64,000 bases of DNA from Halopiger goleimassiliensis (lineage in GTDB: Archaea; Halobacteriota; Halobacteria; Halobacteriales; Natrialbaceae): the NCBI RefSeq assembly GCF_000455345.1, contig NZ_HG315690.1, positions 1,625,360 to 1,689,359 of the forward strand. The letters run 5' to 3'. The notes below the pieces were generated by a model, which saw only the letters and a program-made list of their open reading frames with translations, did not search any database and was not told the DNA's origin. Of this stretch, positions 2,900 through 56,574 are shown one piece after another (within the stretch, counting starts at the first letter, position 1; every line of letters begins with the position of its first letter). Both the position numbers and the translations under genes were made by a program.

Positions 2900-3363
2900 G
2901 CGACGACCACGAACGCACCTTCGTGATGGTCAAGCCCGACGCCTTCGCGCGCGGCCTCGTCGGCGAGGTCGTCTCCCGACTCGAGGACCGCGGCCTCAAA
3001 CTCGTCGGGATCAAGGTCGAGAACATGCCCCGCGAGCGGGCCGAGGAACACTACAGCGAGCACGAGGACAAGCCGTTCTACGACGACCTCGTCGACTTCA
3101 TCACCTCCGGCCCGGTCGTCCCGATGGTCTGGGAGGGCCAGGACGCGACCCGTCAGGTCCGCCAGATGATCGGCGAGACCGACCCGCTCGAGGCCGAACC
3201 CGGCACCATTCGCGGTGACTACGCGCTCGACCTCGGTCGCAACGTCGTCCACGCGGCCGACCACGAGGACGAAGGCGCTAACGAGCGCGAGATCGCGATC
3301 CACTTCGACGAGGACGAACTGATCGACTACGACCAGCACGACGCCGAGTGGCTCTACGAGTAA
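2896..3363 (+). CDS. ndk: nucleoside-diphosphate kinase
   Basis: A 155-residue Ndk that transfers the gamma phosphate of NTPs to NDPs through a phosphohistidine. It begins [20 protein letters not shown], with the KPDA nucleotide-binding motif. The active-site histidine is H119 within NVVHAADH, in the position of the NxxHGSD motif of the family. The C-terminus is acidic. Its ATG overlaps the last codons of rpl24e (ATGA), the normal gene order in haloarchaea. A ribosomal operon driving Ndk couples nucleotide supply to growth; this is an inference from the order. Confidence 0.96.
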
Positions 3364-3581
3364 CGATCGGCACACCACGGCCTCGTTAACCGGCCAGCGC
3401 CACTTCACTGACCGATTTTCTCCCGGATCTCTCACTACCCGGTACGGACGGGATTCTCTCGTCAGCGATAGTTACGGGAGAAATACACGTAACAATCTAG
3501 AGAGACGTAACAACTAATGGATGGCCTGCAGTAGAGAGGAGTGGTGATTTCGTATGGTAACGTACGGTAGGTGGTCCGGAA

Positions 3582-3956
3582 ATGCGTGAAACAGAGGGGT
3601 CGACGGCACGCGTCGCGGAATCGGCACCGTCGCTCGATCTCGTCTTCGATCTCCTCTCCAATCCTCGTCGTCGATACGCCCTGTATCTCCTTTCCGACCG
3701 GACGGACGGGGTCGCGACCGTCGGCGAGATTACGGACCACATCGCCACGCTCGAGTGCGGCGACGATCCGGCCGCCGATGAGCCGCCGACCGACCTGAGC
3801 CGCGAGATCCGGATCGAACTCCAGCACGTCCACCTGCCGAAACTCGAGGACGCGGGGATCCTCGAGATCGATCAGCGAAGCGATACCGTCCGCTACTGGA
3901 GCCAACCGTCGCTCGAGGAGTGGCTCGAACACGCCTATCACAAGGAACTGTCGTAG
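3582..3956 (+). CDS. small winged-helix protein of the haloarchaeal DUF7344-like type
   Basis: A 124-residue protein beginning MRETEGSTARVAESAP. SLDLVFDLLSNPRRRYALYLL followed by VATVGEITDHIATLE and later IELQHVHLPKLEDAGILEI is the pattern of the many small haloarchaeal winged-helix regulators, where the second helix pair contacts DNA. A C-terminal WSQPSLEEWLEHAY completes the domain. An AT-rich promoter region with GATTTCGTATGG about 32 bases before the ATG supports the start. No neighbour gives a target. The domain class is fairly sure; the regulon is unknown. Confidence 0.75.
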   Translation: MRETEGSTARVAESAPSLDLVFDLLSNPRRRYALYLLSDRTDGVATVGEITDHIATLECGDDPAADEPPTDLSREIRIELQHVHLPKLEDAGILEIDQRSDTVRYWSQPSLEEWLEHAYHKELS

Positions 3957-4217
3957 CGGCGGCGAGTCGAACACGAGCGGGCGAGATCGGCGAGGCGGAC
4001 TGCTGTACCGATGTATCGGGGCACCCGCGACCCGGCGTCGGCTGCGCCGGCACAGACGTACAGTAGACCGTATGAAAGGTTTAACAGGGAGTCCGTAGTG
4101 CACTCGAGTGGCGTCCGTCGCGAACGGGGCGACGGACCGAAGCAATTGGGGTGTGATATCGTTTCACTCCTCAACACTTAACAATCGAGCTATCCATACA
4201 CTCACACGGGTGTTATC

Positions 4218-4820
4218 ATGACTGATCACGAACTTCCACCACTACCGTACGATTACGACGCGCTCGAGCCGGCGATTTCCGAACAGGTCGTCACCTGGCA
4301 CCACGATACGCACCATCAGGGCTACGTCAACGGCCTCAACTCGGCCGAGGAAACCCTCGCGGAAAACCGCGAGTCCGGCGACTTCGACTCGACGCCCGGT
4401 GCCCTCAAGGACGTCACCCACAACGGCTGTGGCCACTATCTCCACACGCTGTTCTGGGAGAACATGTCTCCCGACGGCGGCGGCGAACCCGAGGGCGACC
4501 TCGCCGACCGCATCGAGGAGGACTTCGGCTCCTACGAGGGTTGGAAAGGCGAGTTCCAGAAGGCTGCCGGTGCCGCTGGCGGCTGGGCCCTGCTGGTGTA
4601 CGACCCGGTCTCGAAGCAGCTGCGCAACCTCGCGGTCGACAAGCACGACCAGGGCGCACTCTGGGGGGCCCACCCCATCCTCGCGCTGGACGTCTGGGAA
4701 CACTCCTACTACTACGACTACGGCCCGGACCGCGGCAGCTTCATCGACGGCTTCTTCGACGTGATCAACTGGGACTCCGTCGCCGAGGAGTACCAGAAGT
4801 GCATCGACCACTTCGAGTAA
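4218..4820 (+). CDS. sod: superoxide dismutase, Fe/Mn family, probably Mn
   Basis: A 200-residue Fe/Mn superoxide dismutase that dismutes superoxide in the cytoplasm. The four metal ligands are visible as H28 (TWHHDTHH), H76 (GHYLHTLFW), D158 and H162 (LDVWEHSYY). The N-terminal helical hairpin and C-terminal alpha/beta domain are complete, and length matches other haloarchaeal enzymes. The usual haloarchaeal enzyme uses Mn. A box-A-like CACTTAAC about 40 bases upstream and the ATG after a short leader support the start. It is a single-gene unit with no obvious redox partner beside it. Confidence 0.96.
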   Translation: MTDHELPPLPYDYDALEPAISEQVVTWHHDTHHQGYVNGLNSAEETLAENRESGDFDSTPGALKDVTHNGCGHYLHTLFWENMSPDGGGEPEGDLADRIEEDFGSYEGWKGEFQKAAGAAGGWALLVYDPVSKQLRNLAVDKHDQGALWGAHPILALDVWEHSYYYDYGPDRGSFIDGFFDVINWDSVAEEYQKCIDHFE

Positions 4821-5054
4821 CGTAGTTCGACGACGGATCGCCGCCGACGAGTCAGTCAACCTCCGTTCTTTTATCAAGCACCGCCGAATAGCGGGTCGAT
4901 TCCCGACCGCGGTCGAGACGCATCGCCTCGCCCGAGCGGGCCTCGAGCGTCAGACCGGCTTCGATGGTCGGGTCCATCCGGTACCGACGACGGACTGATC
5001 GCATGTCGAACCGTGACAATCGACTACTGGCACGACGTCGAAACGGGAACGAAC

Positions 5055-5062
5055 GATTTAGG
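5055..5062 (+). promoter_or_regulatory. TATA-like box for the leaderless gene at 5088
   Basis: GATTTAGG centred about 30 bases before the ATG at 5088, preceded by purine-rich CGAAC as a possible BRE. It decides the start: an upstream GTG at 5013 would lie before the promoter. Confidence 0.6.
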
Positions 5063-5087
5063 CGTCAGAACGCGATATCGACGACAC

Positions 5088-5360
5088 ATGCCCGTTCCGA
5101 AATCCGAGTTCGACGAACTCCCACCCTGTGACTTCTATACGCCCGCAGAACTGCTCGAGCCCGATCAGATGTACACCGTCTACGAGATCGCGAGACTCCT
5201 GCAGGGACTCGAGCCGGACGCCGAAATCGAGGCCGAGACCGAGGCCATCCTGCTCGACTGGGCGATCCCGTGGATCATGACGAACGCGGACGACCTCGTC
5301 GTCGCCGAACCGCGATCGGACGACGAACCCGGCTACTACGGGCTCAAAGAAGACGAATGA
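5088..5360 (+). CDS. conserved small haloarchaeal protein, possibly DUF5827
   Basis: A 90-residue acidic protein beginning MPVPKSEFDELPPCDFYTP. It has a helical middle part (MYTVYEIARLLQGLEPDAE) and a tryptophan-rich segment (LLDWAIPWIMTNADDLV). I associate this pattern with the haloarchaeal family DUF5827, but from memory only. Start choice follows the TATA-like box 30 bases upstream. Its stop overlaps the ATG of the next gene (ATGA at 5357), so the two are translationally coupled and may act together. No catalytic motif is visible. Confidence 0.75.
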   Translation: MPVPKSEFDELPPCDFYTPAELLEPDQMYTVYEIARLLQGLEPDAEIEAETEAILLDWAIPWIMTNADDLVVAEPRSDDEPGYYGLKEDE

Positions 5361-6190
5361 ACGTCCTGGTGGTCGGTGCCGACCGCGTCGACGCCGGGAA
5401 AACGACGTTCACCGTCGGCCTGCTCGCACGGACCGGCGGCGTGGGCTACAAGCCGCGGGCCGGGAACGACTTCTGGTTCGACCACGACGACTGCCGTCGT
5501 GCGTTGGCGGAGGGACGGCTCTACGGGAAGGACGCGGCCCGTATCGCGGCCGCGGAACGGAGCGACCGTCCGCCGGAGCGACTCAATCCCGTCCATCGAC
5601 TCTGGCGACCGTCACCCGGCGGCGGTAACGGCTTGCTCGGGCGAAGCGACCGCGAGTTCCTGATCGACAGGATCGGATCGGGCGACCCCGATTCGACGAC
5701 TTACGTGCGGAACGCGACCGCCGACCTGCCCGAGTCGGTCGCCGAAGCCCTCCCACTCGAGGACGCGATTCCGGTCGAGTCCGTCGAGACGTTGAACGAC
5801 GTCGCCGAACGGGAGTACGTCCCCGCGTTCGAGCGGATCGCCGACGAGATCGCAGCCGCCGACGTCGCCGTGGTCGAATCCTACGGCGACATCGCGATCC
5901 CGATCCGGTCCCTCGAGCCGACGGTCGTCGCCGCCGTCGAACCCCGTCGCGTCCGGATCTATCCGGGTGACCGATACGCCCGCGCCTGTGACGTCGCTAG
6001 CTCCAGTCCGATGGACGGCCGCCTCGAGAAACGCACCGACGACGTACTCGAACTGCTGGACCCGCTCGAGCGGGTCGAACTTCCGGCGCTACCGAGCGAG
6101 GAACGATCCGATCCCGAATCGGTCGCAACTGCATACGAACCCGCGTACGACACGGTGTTGGCCGCAGCCGATCGAGCGGCCGACGGGTGA
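5357..6190 (+). CDS. P-loop NTPase resembling dethiobiotin-synthetase-fold proteins
   Basis: A 277-residue protein starting MNVLVVGADRVDAGKTTFTV, an N-terminal Walker A (GADRVDAGKTT) of the deviant type seen in dethiobiotin synthetase and cobyrinate synthase relatives. A second conserved part is VAVVESYGDIAIPI near residue 175, which corresponds to the Walker B region, followed by VVAAVEPRRVRIYPGDRY. No biotin or cobalamin genes adjoin, so that chemistry should not be assumed. It is translationally coupled to the small protein at 5088. The fold is likely; the substrate is unknown. Confidence 0.75.
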   Translation: MNVLVVGADRVDAGKTTFTVGLLARTGGVGYKPRAGNDFWFDHDDCRRALAEGRLYGKDAARIAAAERSDRPPERLNPVHRLWRPSPGGGNGLLGRSDREFLIDRIGSGDPDSTTYVRNATADLPESVAEALPLEDAIPVESVETLNDVAEREYVPAFERIADEIAAADVAVVESYGDIAIPIRSLEPTVVAAVEPRRVRIYPGDRYARACDVASSSPMDGRLEKRTDDVLELLDPLERVELPALPSEERSDPESVATAYEPAYDTVLAAADRAADG

Positions 6191-6230
6191 GACCCGTCGA
6201 CGGAGATCGCGAGGACGGGAGTCGACCGCT

Positions 6231-6809
6231 CTAGGCCTGGCGGGCCATCCGGGCCGCCAGTTGGACGTGGTCGTACGGATCGGTCGTCACGCTCGGCCCG
6301 TGGCCGGTGTGCATCTCCGAAAGGTCGGGCGAGATCCGCTCGAGGACGCGATCGATGCTCTCGATCAGCGTCTCCCGGTCGCCCTCCGGCAGGTCCGTCC
6401 GGCCGAAACTGCCGTTCTGGAAGACGAGGTCCCCGGCGAAGAGGATGCCCCGGTCCTCGGCGTAGAAACAGAGGTGATCGTCCTTGTGACCAGGCGTGTG
6501 CAAGGCGACGTACTCGTCGGACCCAAGTGTGACGCGCTCGTCGTCCCCGATCGCGTGGTCCACGCCCTCGATCGCGGGATCGTACCCCCAGACGTCGACG
6601 TCGAACGCGTCCGTGACTGCCTCGAGATTTCCGACGTGGTCCCGGTGGGTGTGCGTGAGTACGACCGCGTCGAGGTCGTCCGTCCGCGCCCGGATCCGTT
6701 CGACGACGTCGAAGTTCGCCCCGGGGTCGACGAGGACGGTCCGGTCGCCCTCGACCAGAAAGACGTTGCTCGTAAACGCCTGCACGTCCGCCGCGAGGTT
6801 GGCGATCAT
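6231..6809 (-). CDS. metallo-beta-lactamase fold hydrolase, glyoxalase II-like
   Basis: A 192-residue protein with the full metal-binding set of the superfamily: THTHRDHVGN (HxHxDH), HTPGHKDDHLCF, AGDLVFQNGSFGRTDLP and a late HTGHGP. The spacing and FGRTDLP resemble the glyoxalase II branch, which hydrolyses thioesters such as S-lactoylglutathione; haloarchaea use gamma-glutamylcysteine, so the natural thiol would differ. The ATG at 6809 (MIANLAADVQAFTSNVFLVE) is chosen because the domain begins there; longer starts add unrelated basic sequence. It is divergent from the gene at 6931. Confidence 0.88.
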   Translation of the reverse strand: MIANLAADVQAFTSNVFLVEGDRTVLVDPGANFDVVERIRARTDDLDAVVLTHTHRDHVGNLEAVTDAFDVDVWGYDPAIEGVDHAIGDDERVTLGSDEYVALHTPGHKDDHLCFYAEDRGILFAGDLVFQNGSFGRTDLPEGDRETLIESIDRVLERISPDLSEMHTGHGPSVTTDPYDHVQLAARMARQA

Positions 6810-6900
6810 AGCGACGCATACGGGGTCGGATCGTTTGTGCGTATCGACACGACGCGCCATGGTCGGCGTCGCCATGGGGGTGGGTCCGTATTCACAACCA

Positions 6901-6907
6901 TTTTTAG
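6901..6907 (+). promoter_or_regulatory. TATA-like box for the gene at 6931
   Basis: TTTTTAG centred 27 bases before the ATG at 6931, the spacing expected of a leaderless haloarchaeal transcript. It argues against the much longer open frame that extends upstream. Confidence 0.6.
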
Positions 6908-6930
6908 CTCCGGCACGTAGTAGACGACGA

Positions 6931-8124
6931 ATGCATCGGTCGGTTTCTGTCGGGCTCGTCGCCCTCATCGTCGTGCTCGTGGTGGTCGGCGGCCCGATAG
7001 GAGGGGTCGTCACCGCCTTCACTGGGAGTGGTACCGCGGTGCCGTCGCCAGCCCTCCAGTCTTCGTCCGACTCGGACGACGTCGACTCGAGCGACTTCGA
7101 GTCGACCACCTTCGAGATCACCGTCCACGAGAACGGGAGCGCCACCTGGACCTTTCAGTACGAACAGCCGCTAACGGAGGACAGCGACGGGATCGAGACG
7201 CCGGAGAACTTCCGGACGTTCGCCGACGAGTTCGAGTCCGAAGAGACCGCCCTCTACGTTCAGTTTACCGAGCAGGCGGAGTTGATGGCCGAGACTGCGA
7301 TCGAAGACACCGACCGTGAGATGGCGGCCTCGAACTTCAACCGATCGGCGGACATCGAGGGACAACTCAACGCCATCGGCGTCGTCGAGATGTCGTTCCT
7401 CTGGGAGAACTTCGCCGAGACGACCGACGGACAGGTCGTGGTCGGCGACGTGTTCCAGGGGCTGATCATCACCGCCGACCAGGAGATCGTCGTCAAACCC
7501 GACGGCAACCTCGCGTTCAGCAGTGCCACCCCAGAACCGGATAGCGTCGTCGGCTCGTCGATCGAGGAGGCGACGTCGCTTCACTGGAAGGGCGAACGCG
7601 AGTTCTTCGAGGGGCACCCACGAGTCGTCCTCGAGTCCGACCACGATGGGGCGGTCGGAGGCAGTTCCTCGCTCTCGGAGCGCATCTCCCCGAACGGCGA
7701 CGCGTCGCCGTGGACGCTCGGTCTCGGCGTCTTGCTCGTTGGTCTCGCGCTCGGTGCGGCCGGATTGTGGTACCGGCACCGGTCGACGTCCGACGCCGAC
7801 GGGGCCGAACCGAACACCGGCGGATCCGACGACGATACTCCCTCCGCAGATGCCCAGCCGTCGGACGCCCCTGCCGACCCACTCGAGGACGAAGAACTGC
7901 TCACCGACGAGGACCGCGTCGTCAAACTCATCGAGAACAACGGCGGCCGCATGAAGCAGGTGGACATCGTCGACGAAACCGGCTGGTCCAAATCCAAGGT
8001 CAGCATGCTCCTCTCAGACATGGAGGACGAGGGCACGATCAGCAAGCTCCGCGTCGGCCGCGAGAACATCATCAGCCTCGAGGGGTACGAGCCCGAAGCG
8101 ACGAAGTCGCCGTTCGACGAATAA
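6931..8124 (+). CDS. membrane-anchored protein with extracellular domain and cytoplasmic winged helix
   Basis: A 397-residue protein. Residues 1-30 are a hydrophobic signal sequence (VSVGLVALIVVLVVVGG). Residues about 35-250 form an acidic outside domain with VHENGSATWTFQYEQPL. A membrane span lies at about 260-282 (WTLGLGVLLVGLALGAAGLW), then an acidic linker. Residues 320-385 are a winged helix (MKQVDIVDETGWSKSKVSML, then ISKLRVGRENIISLEGY). This is the haloarchaeal layout annotated DUF7345 plus DUF7343. It suggests a one-component sensor that reads the cell surface and binds DNA at the membrane, or is released by cleavage; that role is inferred. Confidence 0.8.
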   Translation: MHRSVSVGLVALIVVLVVVGGPIGGVVTAFTGSGTAVPSPALQSSSDSDDVDSSDFESTTFEITVHENGSATWTFQYEQPLTEDSDGIETPENFRTFADEFESEETALYVQFTEQAELMAETAIEDTDREMAASNFNRSADIEGQLNAIGVVEMSFLWENFAETTDGQVVVGDVFQGLIITADQEIVVKPDGNLAFSSATPEPDSVVGSSIEEATSLHWKGEREFFEGHPRVVLESDHDGAVGGSSSLSERISPNGDASPWTLGLGVLLVGLALGAAGLWYRHRSTSDADGAEPNTGGSDDDTPSADAQPSDAPADPLEDEELLTDEDRVVKLIENNGGRMKQVDIVDETGWSKSKVSMLLSDMEDEGTISKLRVGRENIISLEGYEPEATKSPFDE

Positions 8125-8211
8125 CCGCGGCATGGCACGCCGGCCCACCCCCGGATCGAAACGGAATCCTTAAACATCGACCCGCACTACGGATGAATGC
8201 ATTCGACGCAC

Positions 8212-8286
8212 GCTCCGATAGTGTAGTCCGGCCAATCATATTGCCCTCTCGAGGCAATGACCGGGGTTCAAATCCCCGTCGGAGCA
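8212..8286 (+). tRNA. tRNA-Glu (CTC anticodon)
   Basis: A 75-base cloverleaf. The acceptor strands GCTCCGA and TCGGAGC pair fully, with discriminator A at 8286. The D arm carries GTGTAGTCCGGCC. The anticodon stem TTGCC/GGCAA closes a loop CTCTCGA that reads anticodon CTC (Glu). The T arm is GGGG TTCAAAT CCCC. No 3' CCA is encoded, as is usual in haloarchaea. A TTAAAC box about 40 bases upstream may be the promoter. Its 3' end is repeated about 120 bases downstream. Confidence 0.96.
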
Positions 8287-8678
8287 CTCTTCTGAACGAA
8301 CCTCGTGAGTGAAGAAGGAAGCGCACGAGGGGATTTGAACAAGCGAGTCGCAGCGATCGAACGAAGTGAGATCGACCGTCTCGCACCTGTTCAAATCCCC
8401 GTCGGAGCCGTTCTACGGCGAACTAACCGGCGAGCACCGCATAGCGTGTACTACCCGTGAGCCGTGAAATCGATCCGGGCGTTCATCGACCGCTGTCCCT
8501 TCGGAAACCGATCCGTGACTGCAACACCAGATCGCTGATCGAGTCAGTTCGTAACCTGCACTCGCCAGTAACGTGCTGTTACGATACGTCATGAGGGGGA
8601 GCACTCCTCGCGTCGGTCGTCGTTCGTACGGTTGGGGCCCAGTGCGGACAGAATGAGACGAGCTCCGCAGCCACTCGA
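8287..8678. repeat. gene-free stretch holding partial tRNA-Glu 3'-end copies and nested inverted repeats
   Basis: No gene is supported here. The last 20 bases of the tRNA body (8266-8285) recur as a perfect direct copy at 8389-8408, and 13 bases (GGGGATTTGAACA) recur inverted at 8329-8341, so 8329-8341 and 8388-8400 can form a 13-bp stem. A second inverted repeat (CCTCGTG 8301-8307, CACGAGG 8324-8330) abuts it. tRNA 3' ends are standard integrase attachment cores, so this may be the scar of an excised element. Bases 8410-8678 show nothing recognisable apart from a weak GTAAC/GTTAC hairpin at 8568-8582. Confidence 0.7.
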
Positions 8679-9229
8679 TTACGACGAATCACCTAAAGAG
8701 AGCAATCGATCGACTACCGATCGACCGACGTTGTGGTCGTCGGAGTTCGGGTTCTCGGCCATCATCGCGATCTTTTCCTCGTTCACCTCCTCGAGCAGTT
8801 CGATGGCGTCGAGACACGACGCGTAGAGCCCGTGTTTACGTTTGCGTCGGACCACGTCCTCGGAGCGAGGTGCGTAGACGTTAACGCGGCCCCCTTCGGG
8901 AAGGACGCGCGACGTCTTCTCGACGACGCCGAGATCGACGAGGTGGTTCAGGTGTCGGCTGACGACGCTTCGGTCACGGTCGACGGTCTCGACGAGGTCA
9001 TCGATGGTCGTTTCACCCGCAGCCATGACCTGCTGACGGACCTCGAGTTCGGTCGGGGAGATATCGAACACGTCGCGCATGAGTTCCTCGACGGTCGGCG
9101 ATTCGGTGGGGACGGTCGTCTCTACGGCGTCCATCGGCCCGTCGCAGCAGGTCGCTCCCCGTCGCTCAACGGAAGTTCGCCGCAGGTCGGACACTCGTAG
9201 ACGTCTAACTGGCTATCAGAAGGCGGCAT
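8679..9229 (-). pseudogene. zinc-ribbon plus helix-turn-helix regulator, frameshifted
   Basis: The intact reading would be 183 residues from the ATG at 9229. One frame gives MPPSDSQLDVYECPTCGELP, a CxxC zinc knuckle; the other gives GATCCDGPMDAVETTVP and then a MarR/TrmB-like helix-turn-helix (MRDVFDISPTELEVRQQVM, later VDRDRSVVSRHLNHLVDLGV). Adding one G to the run at 9157-9160 joins the two frames and rebuilds a four-cysteine ribbon, CPTC plus CC. A shortened product could start at the ATG at 9134 and keep only the HTH. Such proteins occur intact in haloarchaea. Either a real mutation or a sequencing indel explains it. Confidence 0.7.
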
Positions 9230-53341: not shown

Positions 53342-54199
53342 TCACTCGCGTTGGCGTTCGGTCGTGCCCATCGTGATCTCGCCGTCGGCACGGATCGTGC
53401 CGTCGACTTCGGCGTCGGGTCCGAGCTCGAGGTCCGCACACGAGACGTCGCCGAGAATCCGCGCGCCCGCGGCGACGGTGACGTCGCCGTGACGCGTCGT
53501 CAGGTCGCCGTGGATGCGCGTGTCCTCGCCTACGGTGACGTCGCCGCGGGCCCGGAGGCTGCCGAAGACGTTGCAGTCGGCCCCGACGTCGATGGTTTCG
53601 GCGCGGACGTTCCCGTGGAGCCGACAGTCGTCGCCGATCGTCGCCGGCGTCGACACGCGCCAGGCGTCGTCGCCGACGGTCGCGTTCCGCGGGATGACAA
53701 GCGGGTCGGTGTCGGGCGTCTCGCCCTCCTCGTCGACCAGTTCCGAGATGAGCCGCTGGGCGGTCTCCTCCTCGCCGATCAACAGCAGGTGCTTGAGGTA
53801 GACGAACAACAAGACGATGGTCGGCATCGGGTTCCGGATGACGATCCAGCCGTTGGCCTCGAACCCCTCCTCGATGTCGACGTCGTCGCCGATGTCCAGG
53901 TCCCCGGCGACTTTCAACTTGCCGCCGATGTGGACCCGTTCGCCGATGTAGGCGTCCTGGCCGACGAGCACGTTCTCGGCGACGTCACACCACATGTCGA
54001 GGCGACAGTCGCCGTCGGCCTCGATGTCGCCGCCGAACTCGACGCTCTCGCCGGCCAGCACGTTCCGTCCGCGCACGCCGAACTCGATCGTCGAGCGCGC
54101 GCCGACGAGCACGTCCCCGTCGGTCTCGAGGGCGACTTCCTTCGCTTCCGTCCCGTCGGGAACGACGAGTTCGTCGAGCGGGTCCCTGCCTACGGCCAC
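53342..54199 (-). CDS. bactofilin-like / polymer-forming protein with an internal hydrophobic helix
   Basis: A 285-residue protein from a GTG at 54199. Repeating hexad-like turns (VLVGARSTIEFGVRGRNVL, IGDDVDIEEGFEANGWIVIR, VTVGEDTRIHGDLTTRHGDV, ILGDVSCADLELGPDAEVDG) form a right-handed beta-helix like bactofilins or the left-handed helix acyltransferases. The helix is broken near residues 125-150 by NPMPTIVLLFVYLKHLLLIG, hydrophobic enough for a membrane contact. No acyltransferase active site is seen. A surface or cytoskeletal role is inferred. Confidence 0.78.
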   Translation of the reverse strand: MAVGRDPLDELVVPDGTEAKEVALETDGDVLVGARSTIEFGVRGRNVLAGESVEFGGDIEADGDCRLDMWCDVAENVLVGQDAYIGERVHIGGKLKVAGDLDIGDDVDIEEGFEANGWIVIRNPMPTIVLLFVYLKHLLLIGEEETAQRLISELVDEEGETPDTDPLVIPRNATVGDDAWRVSTPATIGDDCRLHGNVRAETIDVGADCNVFGSLRARGDVTVGEDTRIHGDLTTRHGDVTVAAGARILGDVSCADLELGPDAEVDGTIRADGEITMGTTERQRE

Positions 54200-54334: not shown

Positions 54335-54532
54335 ATGACGACCCTCGCGTTCGACGACGACGGCGTCGACGTCGTCTACGAAGGTACCGAGTTCCGCCTC
54401 GAGCGGGAGTTGATCGAAGAAGCGACGGAGAAGTCCTACTACGACGTCACCGACCACGAGGTGCTGAAGATCGTCGCCGAACAGCCGAACCTGCAGGGGG
54501 AACCGCGACGGATCGGCGACATCGTCGACTAA
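54335..54532 (+). CDS. small conserved protein, possibly DUF5800
   Basis: A 65-residue protein, MTTLAFDDDGVDVVYEGTEF, continuing RLERELIEEATEKSYYDVTD and ending QGEPRRIGDIVD. I associate this with the small haloarchaeal family DUF5800, from memory only. It lies between the bactofilin-like gene and the transducer gene and is convergent with the latter (3-base gap). Confidence 0.75.
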   Translation: MTTLAFDDDGVDVVYEGTEFRLERELIEEATEKSYYDVTDHEVLKIVAEQPNLQGEPRRIGDIVD

Positions 54533-54535
54533 CGA

Positions 54536-56140
54536 CTACCGATCGTCGGTTTTTCGATCGGTGCCGCCGTCCGTGGCGGCGACCGACGGCCGTTCGTCGA
54601 TGTCGAAGGTCTCGAGGCGCTCGTCGAGTTCGTTCGCCCGGGTGGCGAAGGAGTCGGCGTTCGTCGAGACCTCGGTAATCGTGGACGTCTGTTCCTCGAC
54701 GGCGGCGGAGACGCTCTGGGTCTCCGACTCCGTTCGTTCGCTCGCCTCGACGACGTCGTCGACCATCGCGACGACCTCTTGCGCGGAGGCGGCCTGCTGG
54801 TCCGTCGCGTCGTTGACCTCCTGGATGCTCGCGTTGACCGTCTCCACGTGTTCGGTGATGTCCTCGAGTGCGTCGATACTCGCCTCGATCGTGCCGACGC
54901 CGTCGGTGATCTGTTCGCGCATCGTCTCCATCTCGCCGACGGCGTCGGTGGTCGAGGACCGAACGTCGGTGATCTGCGCTTCGATCTCCTGGGTCGCCTG
55001 TCCGACCTCGCCGGCGAGCGTCTTGATCTCGTCGGCCACGACCGCGAAGCCGCCGCCGGAACTGCCGGCCGTCGCGGCCTCGATTGAGGCGTTGAGCGCG
55101 AGCAAGTTGGTCTGCTCGGCGATGTCGTCGATCAGGTCGACGATCTCGATGATCGACTCCATGTCGTCGTCGAGCGATTCGACCTCTCGGACCGTTCGGT
55201 CGCTCGTCTCCTGAATCCTCGAGAGCGCGGCGACCGCCTCGGTGGCGTTCTCCCGACCCGTCTCGCCACGTTCTGCCGCGTTCTCGGTCGTCTGGGCCAC
55301 GTTCGCCGCCGAGGACGCGACCTCCTCGACGGTCGCCGAGAGGTCACTCATCTCGTCCGAGACCGTCTGGAGGCTCGTCGTCTGCTCGGAGTTCGTCGCG
55401 GCGATCTCCTGGATGGAGTCGCTCACCTGCTGGCCCGCCGCTTCGATGTCCTGTGCGCTGGCCCTGACGGACGAGCTTTCGGTCGCGATCTCCCCGGCGA
55501 ACTCGCGGATCTCGCCGATCGTCCGCTCGAGGTCGGCCATCATGTCGTTGAAGGCCGTCGCGATGTCGGTCATCGCCCGGCTCTCGCTCTCGGGATCCAT
55601 CCGCTGGGTCAGGTCCCCGTCGGCCGCCGCCTCCATCGTCCCCTTGAAAGCGGTTGCTTTTCGCTGGAGGGTTTCCGAGAGTTCCTCGGCCTCCTGCTTC
55701 GCGGTCTCCGCCTCCGTCCGCGCTCGTTCGGCTTCTTGCCGGGATTCCTCTGCTTCCTGGCGAGCCGTTTCGGCTTCAGCCTGCCGTCGTTCGGCCTCCT
55801 CCTTCGCGGCGACGGCGTCGCGGCGAGCGGATTCGACGGACCGGCGCTCGCTTTTCAGTTCGACGACGGCCGACAGCGATCCGGTCGACGTGATCGCGAA
55901 GACGCCGATCGTGATGCCGAGCAGGATCAGTCCGAGCAGGTCCCAGAACCCGCCGCTGATACCGAGCCACTCGGCGGCGGTTACGGCGGCCCACAACATT
56001 CCCAGGAAACAGCCGAACGCGACGTTCGACCAGAAGCCGGCCTCGAGCTCGAAGTCGCGATAGTTCTGCGCGGCGATGACTCCACCCGTCGCGAACGCGA
56101 CGGTGCCGACGATGTCGAACAGGGCGGTGATTTCGACCAT
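54536..56140 (-). CDS. methyl-accepting chemotaxis transducer with membrane-embedded sensor
   Basis: A 534-residue transducer. Three spans lie within residues 8-85 with no outside domain between them. A long coiled coil ([20 protein letters not shown] ...) at 100-165 leads to a HAMP-like part near 170-215, then the signaling domain with [20 protein letters not shown] and [20 protein letters not shown]. Since almost no extracellular part exists, the signal is probably a membrane state or a partner. The gene at 56144 supplies a candidate partner 3 bases upstream. It should act on CheA/CheW. Confidence 0.9.
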
Positions 56141-56143
56141 CGA

Positions 56144-56452
56144 TCACACCTCCGGGCTCTCGATTTCGTCGTCCGACTGGGCCAGCAACCGCTGCCGTCG
56201 GTGGTAGGTCGCGTACGCGAACGCGATGCCGACGCCCATGAGTCCCACGCTGTGCTCGAGGAAGTTGAACGCCGTATTGAACGCCAGGGCCTCGAGGTTG
56301 GTCGCGAGCGTCCCGACGACGATACAGCCGTAGCCGACGGCGAACCACTTCGCCTCCGGCTTGTACCCCAGTAACACGGGAACGAGTCCGACGACCGCGA
56401 TCGTGAGGAGAATGAGCTCTCCGGGCTCGAGCGCCGATAGTGCCAATGCCAT
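56144..56452 (-). CDS. small three-span membrane protein paired with the transducer
   Basis: A 102-residue protein, MALALSALEPGELILLTIAV, with spans near residues 12-30, 37-55 and 65-84. Its stop is 3 bases before the transducer's start, so the two are cotranscribed and probably coupled. Its spans 2 and 3 look like those of the transducer: EAKWFAVGYGC versus [12 protein letters not shown], and VGLMGVGIAFAYAT versus [16 protein letters not shown], at nearly equal distances from the start. No named family is recognised. A sensor partner is the obvious idea. Confidence 0.75.
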   Translation of the reverse strand: MALALSALEPGELILLTIAVVGLVPVLLGYKPEAKWFAVGYGCIVVGTLATNLEALAFNTAFNFLEHSVGLMGVGIAFAYATYHRRQRLLAQSDDEIESPEV

Positions 56453-56574
56453 AGCCGGTAGAGGAAGAACCGGTTAAAGAGTCTTATCGCCAAAATTACA
56501 AACGTTCTATAGAACGTCTAGAGTTTATATCGGAGTAGAGGAGATGATGGACGCCGACGGGGGGACGGGACCGA

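Follow-up and report, generated by a model that had tools for sequence, protein, structure and literature searches.

Why is the gene of a haloarchaeal chemotaxis transducer immediately preceded by one that encodes a membrane protein of 102 residues, and are the two proteins parts of one receptor? The question is raised by a pair of genes on the minus strand of a stretch of 64,000 nucleotides (the window) of Halopiger goleimassiliensis, whose genome (G000; 3.9 Mb) has 20 MCP-domain matches. The small gene, here called S, lies at 56144-56452 and the gene of the transducer (534 aa, Htr17-like; see below) at 54536-56140; both genes lie where the preliminary description put them, and the transducer does, as it said, lack an extracellular domain: short loops join its three spans. 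These spans make up the membrane domain T (residues 1-90; 55871-56140), and are followed by a charged linker that, from its sequence, resembles a coiled coil (residues 95-165; 55646-55858), a HAMP-like segment (residues 168-205; 55526-55639) and a C-terminal MCP signalling domain (residues 304-463; 54752-55231; PF00015, E = 3.9e-37). The HAMP-like segment is one weak, partial Pfam match after the last helix (E = 0.0055, below the Pfam cut-off); homologues of the Htr7/Htr17 type yield no HAMP match at E <= 1e-4.

The S and transducer genes share one reading frame across a gap of 3 nt (56141-56143; TGA TCG ATG), and are probably translationally coupled. A TATA-like element upstream of S, GATATAAAC (56523-56531, minus strand), is, to judge by its letters, the probable promoter of the pair. 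Between this element and the S start lies a perfect 16-bp palindrome, ACGTTCTATAGAACGT (56502-56517), a possible operator; none of the other pairs examined has it upstream, and it was dropped as a candidate for a conserved operator. Two neighbours may be mentioned in passing: a bactofilin-like protein (PF04519, 4.3e-11) is encoded close to the transducer at 53342-54199 (minus strand), beside electron-transfer-flavoprotein genes, and a short ORF of about 65 aa that looks coding (54335-54532, plus strand) converges on the end of the transducer gene.

Is this arrangement peculiar to one genome? The 391 genomes of the class were searched separately with S and with T, and the loci then read. S occurs in 49 copies in 46 of the 391; T-type transducers likewise number 49, in the same 46 genomes, and all have their S gene, upstream and co-oriented in 49 of 49 cases drawn from 23 genera, at spacings of -20 to +6 nt (mostly -8 to +3). 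The expectation that the gene pair would be conserved, and S kept in relatives that have the transducer, thus holds in both directions. The distribution is patchy (the pair is present in two genomes of the window's own family and absent from at least 20 of those listed); a scan of named genomes places it in Haloarcula, Haloferax, Halorubrum and Halobacterium salinarum DSM 3754, and a plasmid collection gave no match to it. No clear orphan of S or of T turned up when profiles were run against 247 and 383 genomes of the phylum and 153 of the class; in the 153 class genomes the T profile found solely transducers of the MCP type, accompanied by S, and three further weak matches. (Weak genome matches, at E of about 1e-3 to 1e-2, were judged unrelated; the ones that were translated proved to be membrane proteins of larger size or a 90-aa ORF that lacks the pair.) The subunits have also diverged together: the S and T distance matrices correlate with r = 0.86, a value that 0 of 2000 permutations equalled, and where a genome carries two pairs, as three do, the S and T of each pair fall in the same clade and partners are not swapped.

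S and its transducer are, then, a real, conserved and obligate unit. Haloarchaeal genes are often tightly packed, and one might think of the two as nothing more than neighbours in an operon, linked neither functionally nor physically, were it not that the genes flanking the pair differ between loci, so that only the pair itself is conserved (no third conserved partner was found), and that S is retained with three kinds of second gene, as described below. Adjacency in 49 of 49 loci and 23 genera, amid otherwise different flanks, effectively refutes that explanation. At one locus, apparently of Halorubrum ezzemoulense (L062 (G284) 791-1099 / L097), the transducer looks broken, since an in-frame TGA interrupts its membrane region; the S gene there is intact.

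The occurrence of the pair in H. salinarum allows it to be connected with named transducers. Strain DSM 3754 has two S-T pairs, about 14 kb apart, one of which adjoins a CosT-like transducer, an OpuAC-type binding protein (CosB), a bacteriorhodopsin-like protein of 237 aa and a 764-aa transducer (HtrII). Only two transducers, Htr17 (OE3436R) and Htr7 (OE3473F), are listed with 3 TM helices and no assigned signal (PMC3579733, Table 2), and a Htr7 locus flanked by CosT/CosB and HtrII/SRII agrees with the OE numbering. Neighbouring gene order and this unique three-TM listing, that is, position, TM count and strand, identify the T-type transducers of H. salinarum as the orphan transducers Htr7 and Htr17. 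The window's transducer, with its three-span N-terminal domain and an S gene directly upstream, is of the same type, orthologous or paralogous to both; its pair is closer to the Htr17 pair than to the Htr7 pair. In the main text of PMC3579733 Htr7 and Htr17 are described as orphan transducers only, whereas in DSM 3754 an S gene stands directly upstream of each. The proteomics paper does not mention an S protein with either, which counts against a shared complex, although membrane proteins of 10 kDa are easily missed.

What sort of protein is S? It has three predicted membrane helices (model residues 10-28, 32-54 and 59-93) and a set of conserved residues, G22, Y41, T51-N52-x-E54, E66-H67, G70 and G75, of which E66 is invariant (55 of 55 sequences) and H67, E54, T51 and G75 are nearly so. 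The transducer, for its part, conserves D9, W37, W50, E57, G60 and D/N67 (D67 in the window). The C-terminus of T must be cytoplasmic and both N-termini should therefore be outside, so that S and T would each run from N-out to C-in; with this topology the TN-x-E (51-54) and E66-H67 of S and the D9, E57 and D/N67 of T would lie near the outer face of the membrane. An AlphaFold2 model of a natural read-through of the pair has three helices in each half (mean pLDDT 89, pTM 0.54), and a run restricted to paired rows has a pTM of 0.60: the helices are good and the domain arrangement is not confident, these pTM values being too low for the model to resolve an S-T interface. Foldseek found no structural match in the PDB, and the sole match of a PDB sequence search was at E = 0.045.

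Are S and T, both three-helix units, related? The preliminary description had taken S for a free-standing duplicate of the transducer's membrane half, because of motifs shared at matching positions. The quoted letters do stand at the same residues in both proteins (E33-A34..G-C at 33-43/44; G70-L71-x3-G75-I76), but for the window's pair this amounts to chance, and neither the S nor the T family conserves the "GC". BLASTP of the window's S against its T yields no alignment, and a Smith-Waterman score of 32 compares with 30 +/- 5 for a local-shuffle null. The profile-profile comparison that had been proposed as a check, performed with haloarchaeal S and T only (hhalign), turned out negative (probability 0.08%, below the shuffled mean); BLASTP and the haloarchaeal-only profiles both being negative, a recent duplication was rejected. 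What survives of the idea is distant homology, which emerges once the stand-alone and kinase-linked relatives taken up below are added. A stand-alone T (genome G448) aligns with its own S end to end and in register (score 54, reached by 14 of 20,000 shuffles), and with haloarchaeal S at scores up to 68, against a cross mean of 30 +/- 6. S members outrank nearly all of 263 three-span decoys against a stand-alone-T profile (median rank fraction 0.004), and two T proteins stand above every one of the same decoys against S profiles. The comparison of divergent S with divergent T, kinase-linked members added, reaches an hhalign probability of 59% (E = 9e-5) over 71 co-linear columns, which was matched by 1 of 250 shuffles that keep span layout and hydropathy; such shuffles of the full families did as well in 0 of 250 and 2 of 250 trials. 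The homology of S and T accordingly has computed statistical support, with two provisos: several S-T pairings were tried, so that any single p-value is weakened, and, the haloarchaeal-only profile test being negative, the case rests on bridging sequences. Allowing for both, an old common ancestry of the two subunits appears quite likely. Their split would have to be old because they are found side by side outside the haloarchaea with no chemoreceptor attached.

Convergence of three-span proteins would be the other way of accounting for the similarity. S might then be the receptor and T a mere transducer, on the pattern of sensory rhodopsin and Htr; haloarchaea have well-established gene pairs of receptor and transducer (SRI/HtrI, SRII/HtrII; PMC3579733), and the failure of the haloarchaeal S and T profiles to match fits this account. 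It does less well with the bridging sequences, whose co-linear similarity goes beyond layout-preserving shuffles and matched decoys, and with the fact that T, too, has polar residues conserved there at the outer face, and we hold it to be distinctly unlikely. The likeness to the rhodopsin systems, a membrane receptor subunit and a transducer encoded as a gene pair, is in any case limited: sensory rhodopsins, retinal proteins with 7 TM helices, are not related to the 2-TM transducers they work with, while S has three helices, is distantly related to T, and has no match to PF01036 (the SRII in L109 matches at 1.4e-63).

Searches of the phylum with the S profile found S in other archaeal lineages, in a small sample of two kinase-linked and four stand-alone loci: in two of these lineages the second subunit forms the N-terminal part of a histidine kinase, and in a third both proteins stand alone. 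One kinase (G683, locus L175; 639 aa) has three N-terminal spans, two PAS domains, HisKA and HATPase_c, and is overlapped by S by 4 nt; the other (G399, L176; 325 aa), with three N-terminal spans and HATPase_c, is overlapped by 8 nt. Their S proteins scored 2.4e-11 (G683) and 1.5e-5 (G399) before inclusion in the profile, and 2e-25 and 3e-21 with a rebuilt profile that contains those rows. The T of the kinases is divergent (Td profile, 2e-4 and 0.11), and these N-termini are assigned as putative T segments by profile plus position plus motifs such as LEWSG. The pair in L175 sits in a signalling cluster (3130-8914), preceded by a PAS/HAMP histidine kinase and a response regulator and followed by a phosphonate-type substrate-binding protein. 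At the stand-alone loci (one in G448, two in G437, one in G414) S is followed by a separate T of about 95 aa (95-97 aa in G448 and G437); the overlap with S is 4 nt in G448 and G437, and in G414 the two genes abut. PF00015 has no match in any of these three genomes, and the control genomes gave the expected results. The stand-alone T gene of G414, a small archaeal genome, has an in-frame stop (L151 7598-7780 and downstream, minus strand) and an intact S partner. The recurrence of the same pair with a histidine kinase or alone in other archaea is what makes it look like a reusable two-part membrane sensor; the module is probably older than its use in chemotaxis and independent of that use.

These loci also bear on two further explanations of why S is there at all. 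1) S could be a dedicated assembly or stability factor, a membrane chaperone of T-type receptors with no sensing role; obligate 1:1 pairing and translational coupling would look identical if it were. A chaperone would not lead one to expect that S has invariant membrane-embedded polar residues of its own (E66, along with H67 and E54), that it persists where T stands alone without an output domain, or that it is distantly related to T, and we regard this explanation as unlikely. 2) As small paralogous subunits, S and T could make up what is primarily a transporter or a channel, comparable to SemiSWEET or the paired SMR proteins, which acquired its sensing role through fusion to MCP or kinase domains. 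The stand-alone pairs without output domain, in genomes without an MCP match, and the conserved charged residues in the spans are what such an origin would leave behind; set against them, no transporter family is matched at curated cut-offs and no structural match was found, and this explanation strikes us as quite unlikely.

The pair may be compared with several known systems. Other than a weak likeness to 7TMR-DISM, matches of S to Pfam and NCBIfam are scattered and insignificant. As to that likeness, 25 of 34 haloarchaeal S proteins weakly match the last third of 7TMR-DISM_7TM (PF07695; best 1.7e-5), and P0002 attains 16.3 bits, over the last third only, against a curated cut-off of 29; it is perhaps a trace of a common origin of three-helix sensor halves. 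7TMR-DISM_7TM and HisKA_7TM resemble the S-T module as membrane sensors placed on varied outputs, and differ from it in being 7-TM domains of one chain, whereas S has three helices and matches below the cut-off. CosB-CosT and BasB-BasT have in common with S-T a separate partner encoded beside the transducer; there the partner is an extracellular binding protein, while S is embedded in the membrane, lacks any large soluble part and has no match to substrate-binding-protein families. A receptor-plus-transducer pair is thus, after SR/Htr and CosB/CosT, of a kind already known in haloarchaea. MpcT (Htr14), assigned to membrane potential (PMC3579733, Table 2), provides the likeness of a haloarchaeal transducer that senses a membrane state; it differs in being listed with 2 TM helices, and PMC3579733 mentions no small membrane partner for it. 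The open-access literature (subscription papers were outside the search) yielded no description of the S-T pair, of the small subunit, or of a partner akin to a transducer's own membrane domain; nor did it yield one of a two-gene module common to MCPs, kinases and an output-free form.

We consider it reasonably likely, as a whole, that S and T constitute a two-subunit, heteromeric membrane sensor, which might work in the following way. The subunits would be made in step through translational coupling, and their three-helix units would assemble into a heteromer, in its simplest form a unit of six helices. A change at the outer face of the membrane, at the conserved acidic, His and Asn residues of both subunits, would be the input, passed through the third helix of T to the coiled-coil/HAMP-like linker, from there to the MCP domain, and on to the Che system; elsewhere the same unit would operate with T fused to a histidine kinase or free-standing. 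What might the signal be? The protonatable residues near the outer face and the absence of a soluble sensing domain invite the guess of a proton or membrane-energy state, or of a small membrane-soluble ligand; this is speculation, to which we attach low confidence.

Tentatively, and with rather more doubt, one can go further and think of S-T as an uncatalogued class of archaeal sensors: two distantly paralogous three-helix subunits, encoded by overlapping genes, that may serve as the interchangeable input of chemoreceptors and histidine kinases, with an output-free form (possibly a transporter, a channel or a part of some other complex) ancestral to the receptors. A single input module of two genes, used by chemotaxis receptors and by histidine kinases and found in a receptor-less form as well, would be useful for studying how membrane sensors arise from duplicated half-modules and switch outputs. 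For H. salinarum, a genetic model among the archaea, the consequence is more immediate: the orphan transducers Htr7 and Htr17 gain a previously unremarked and apparently obligatory partner, and their signal consequently becomes testable by way of one small gene.
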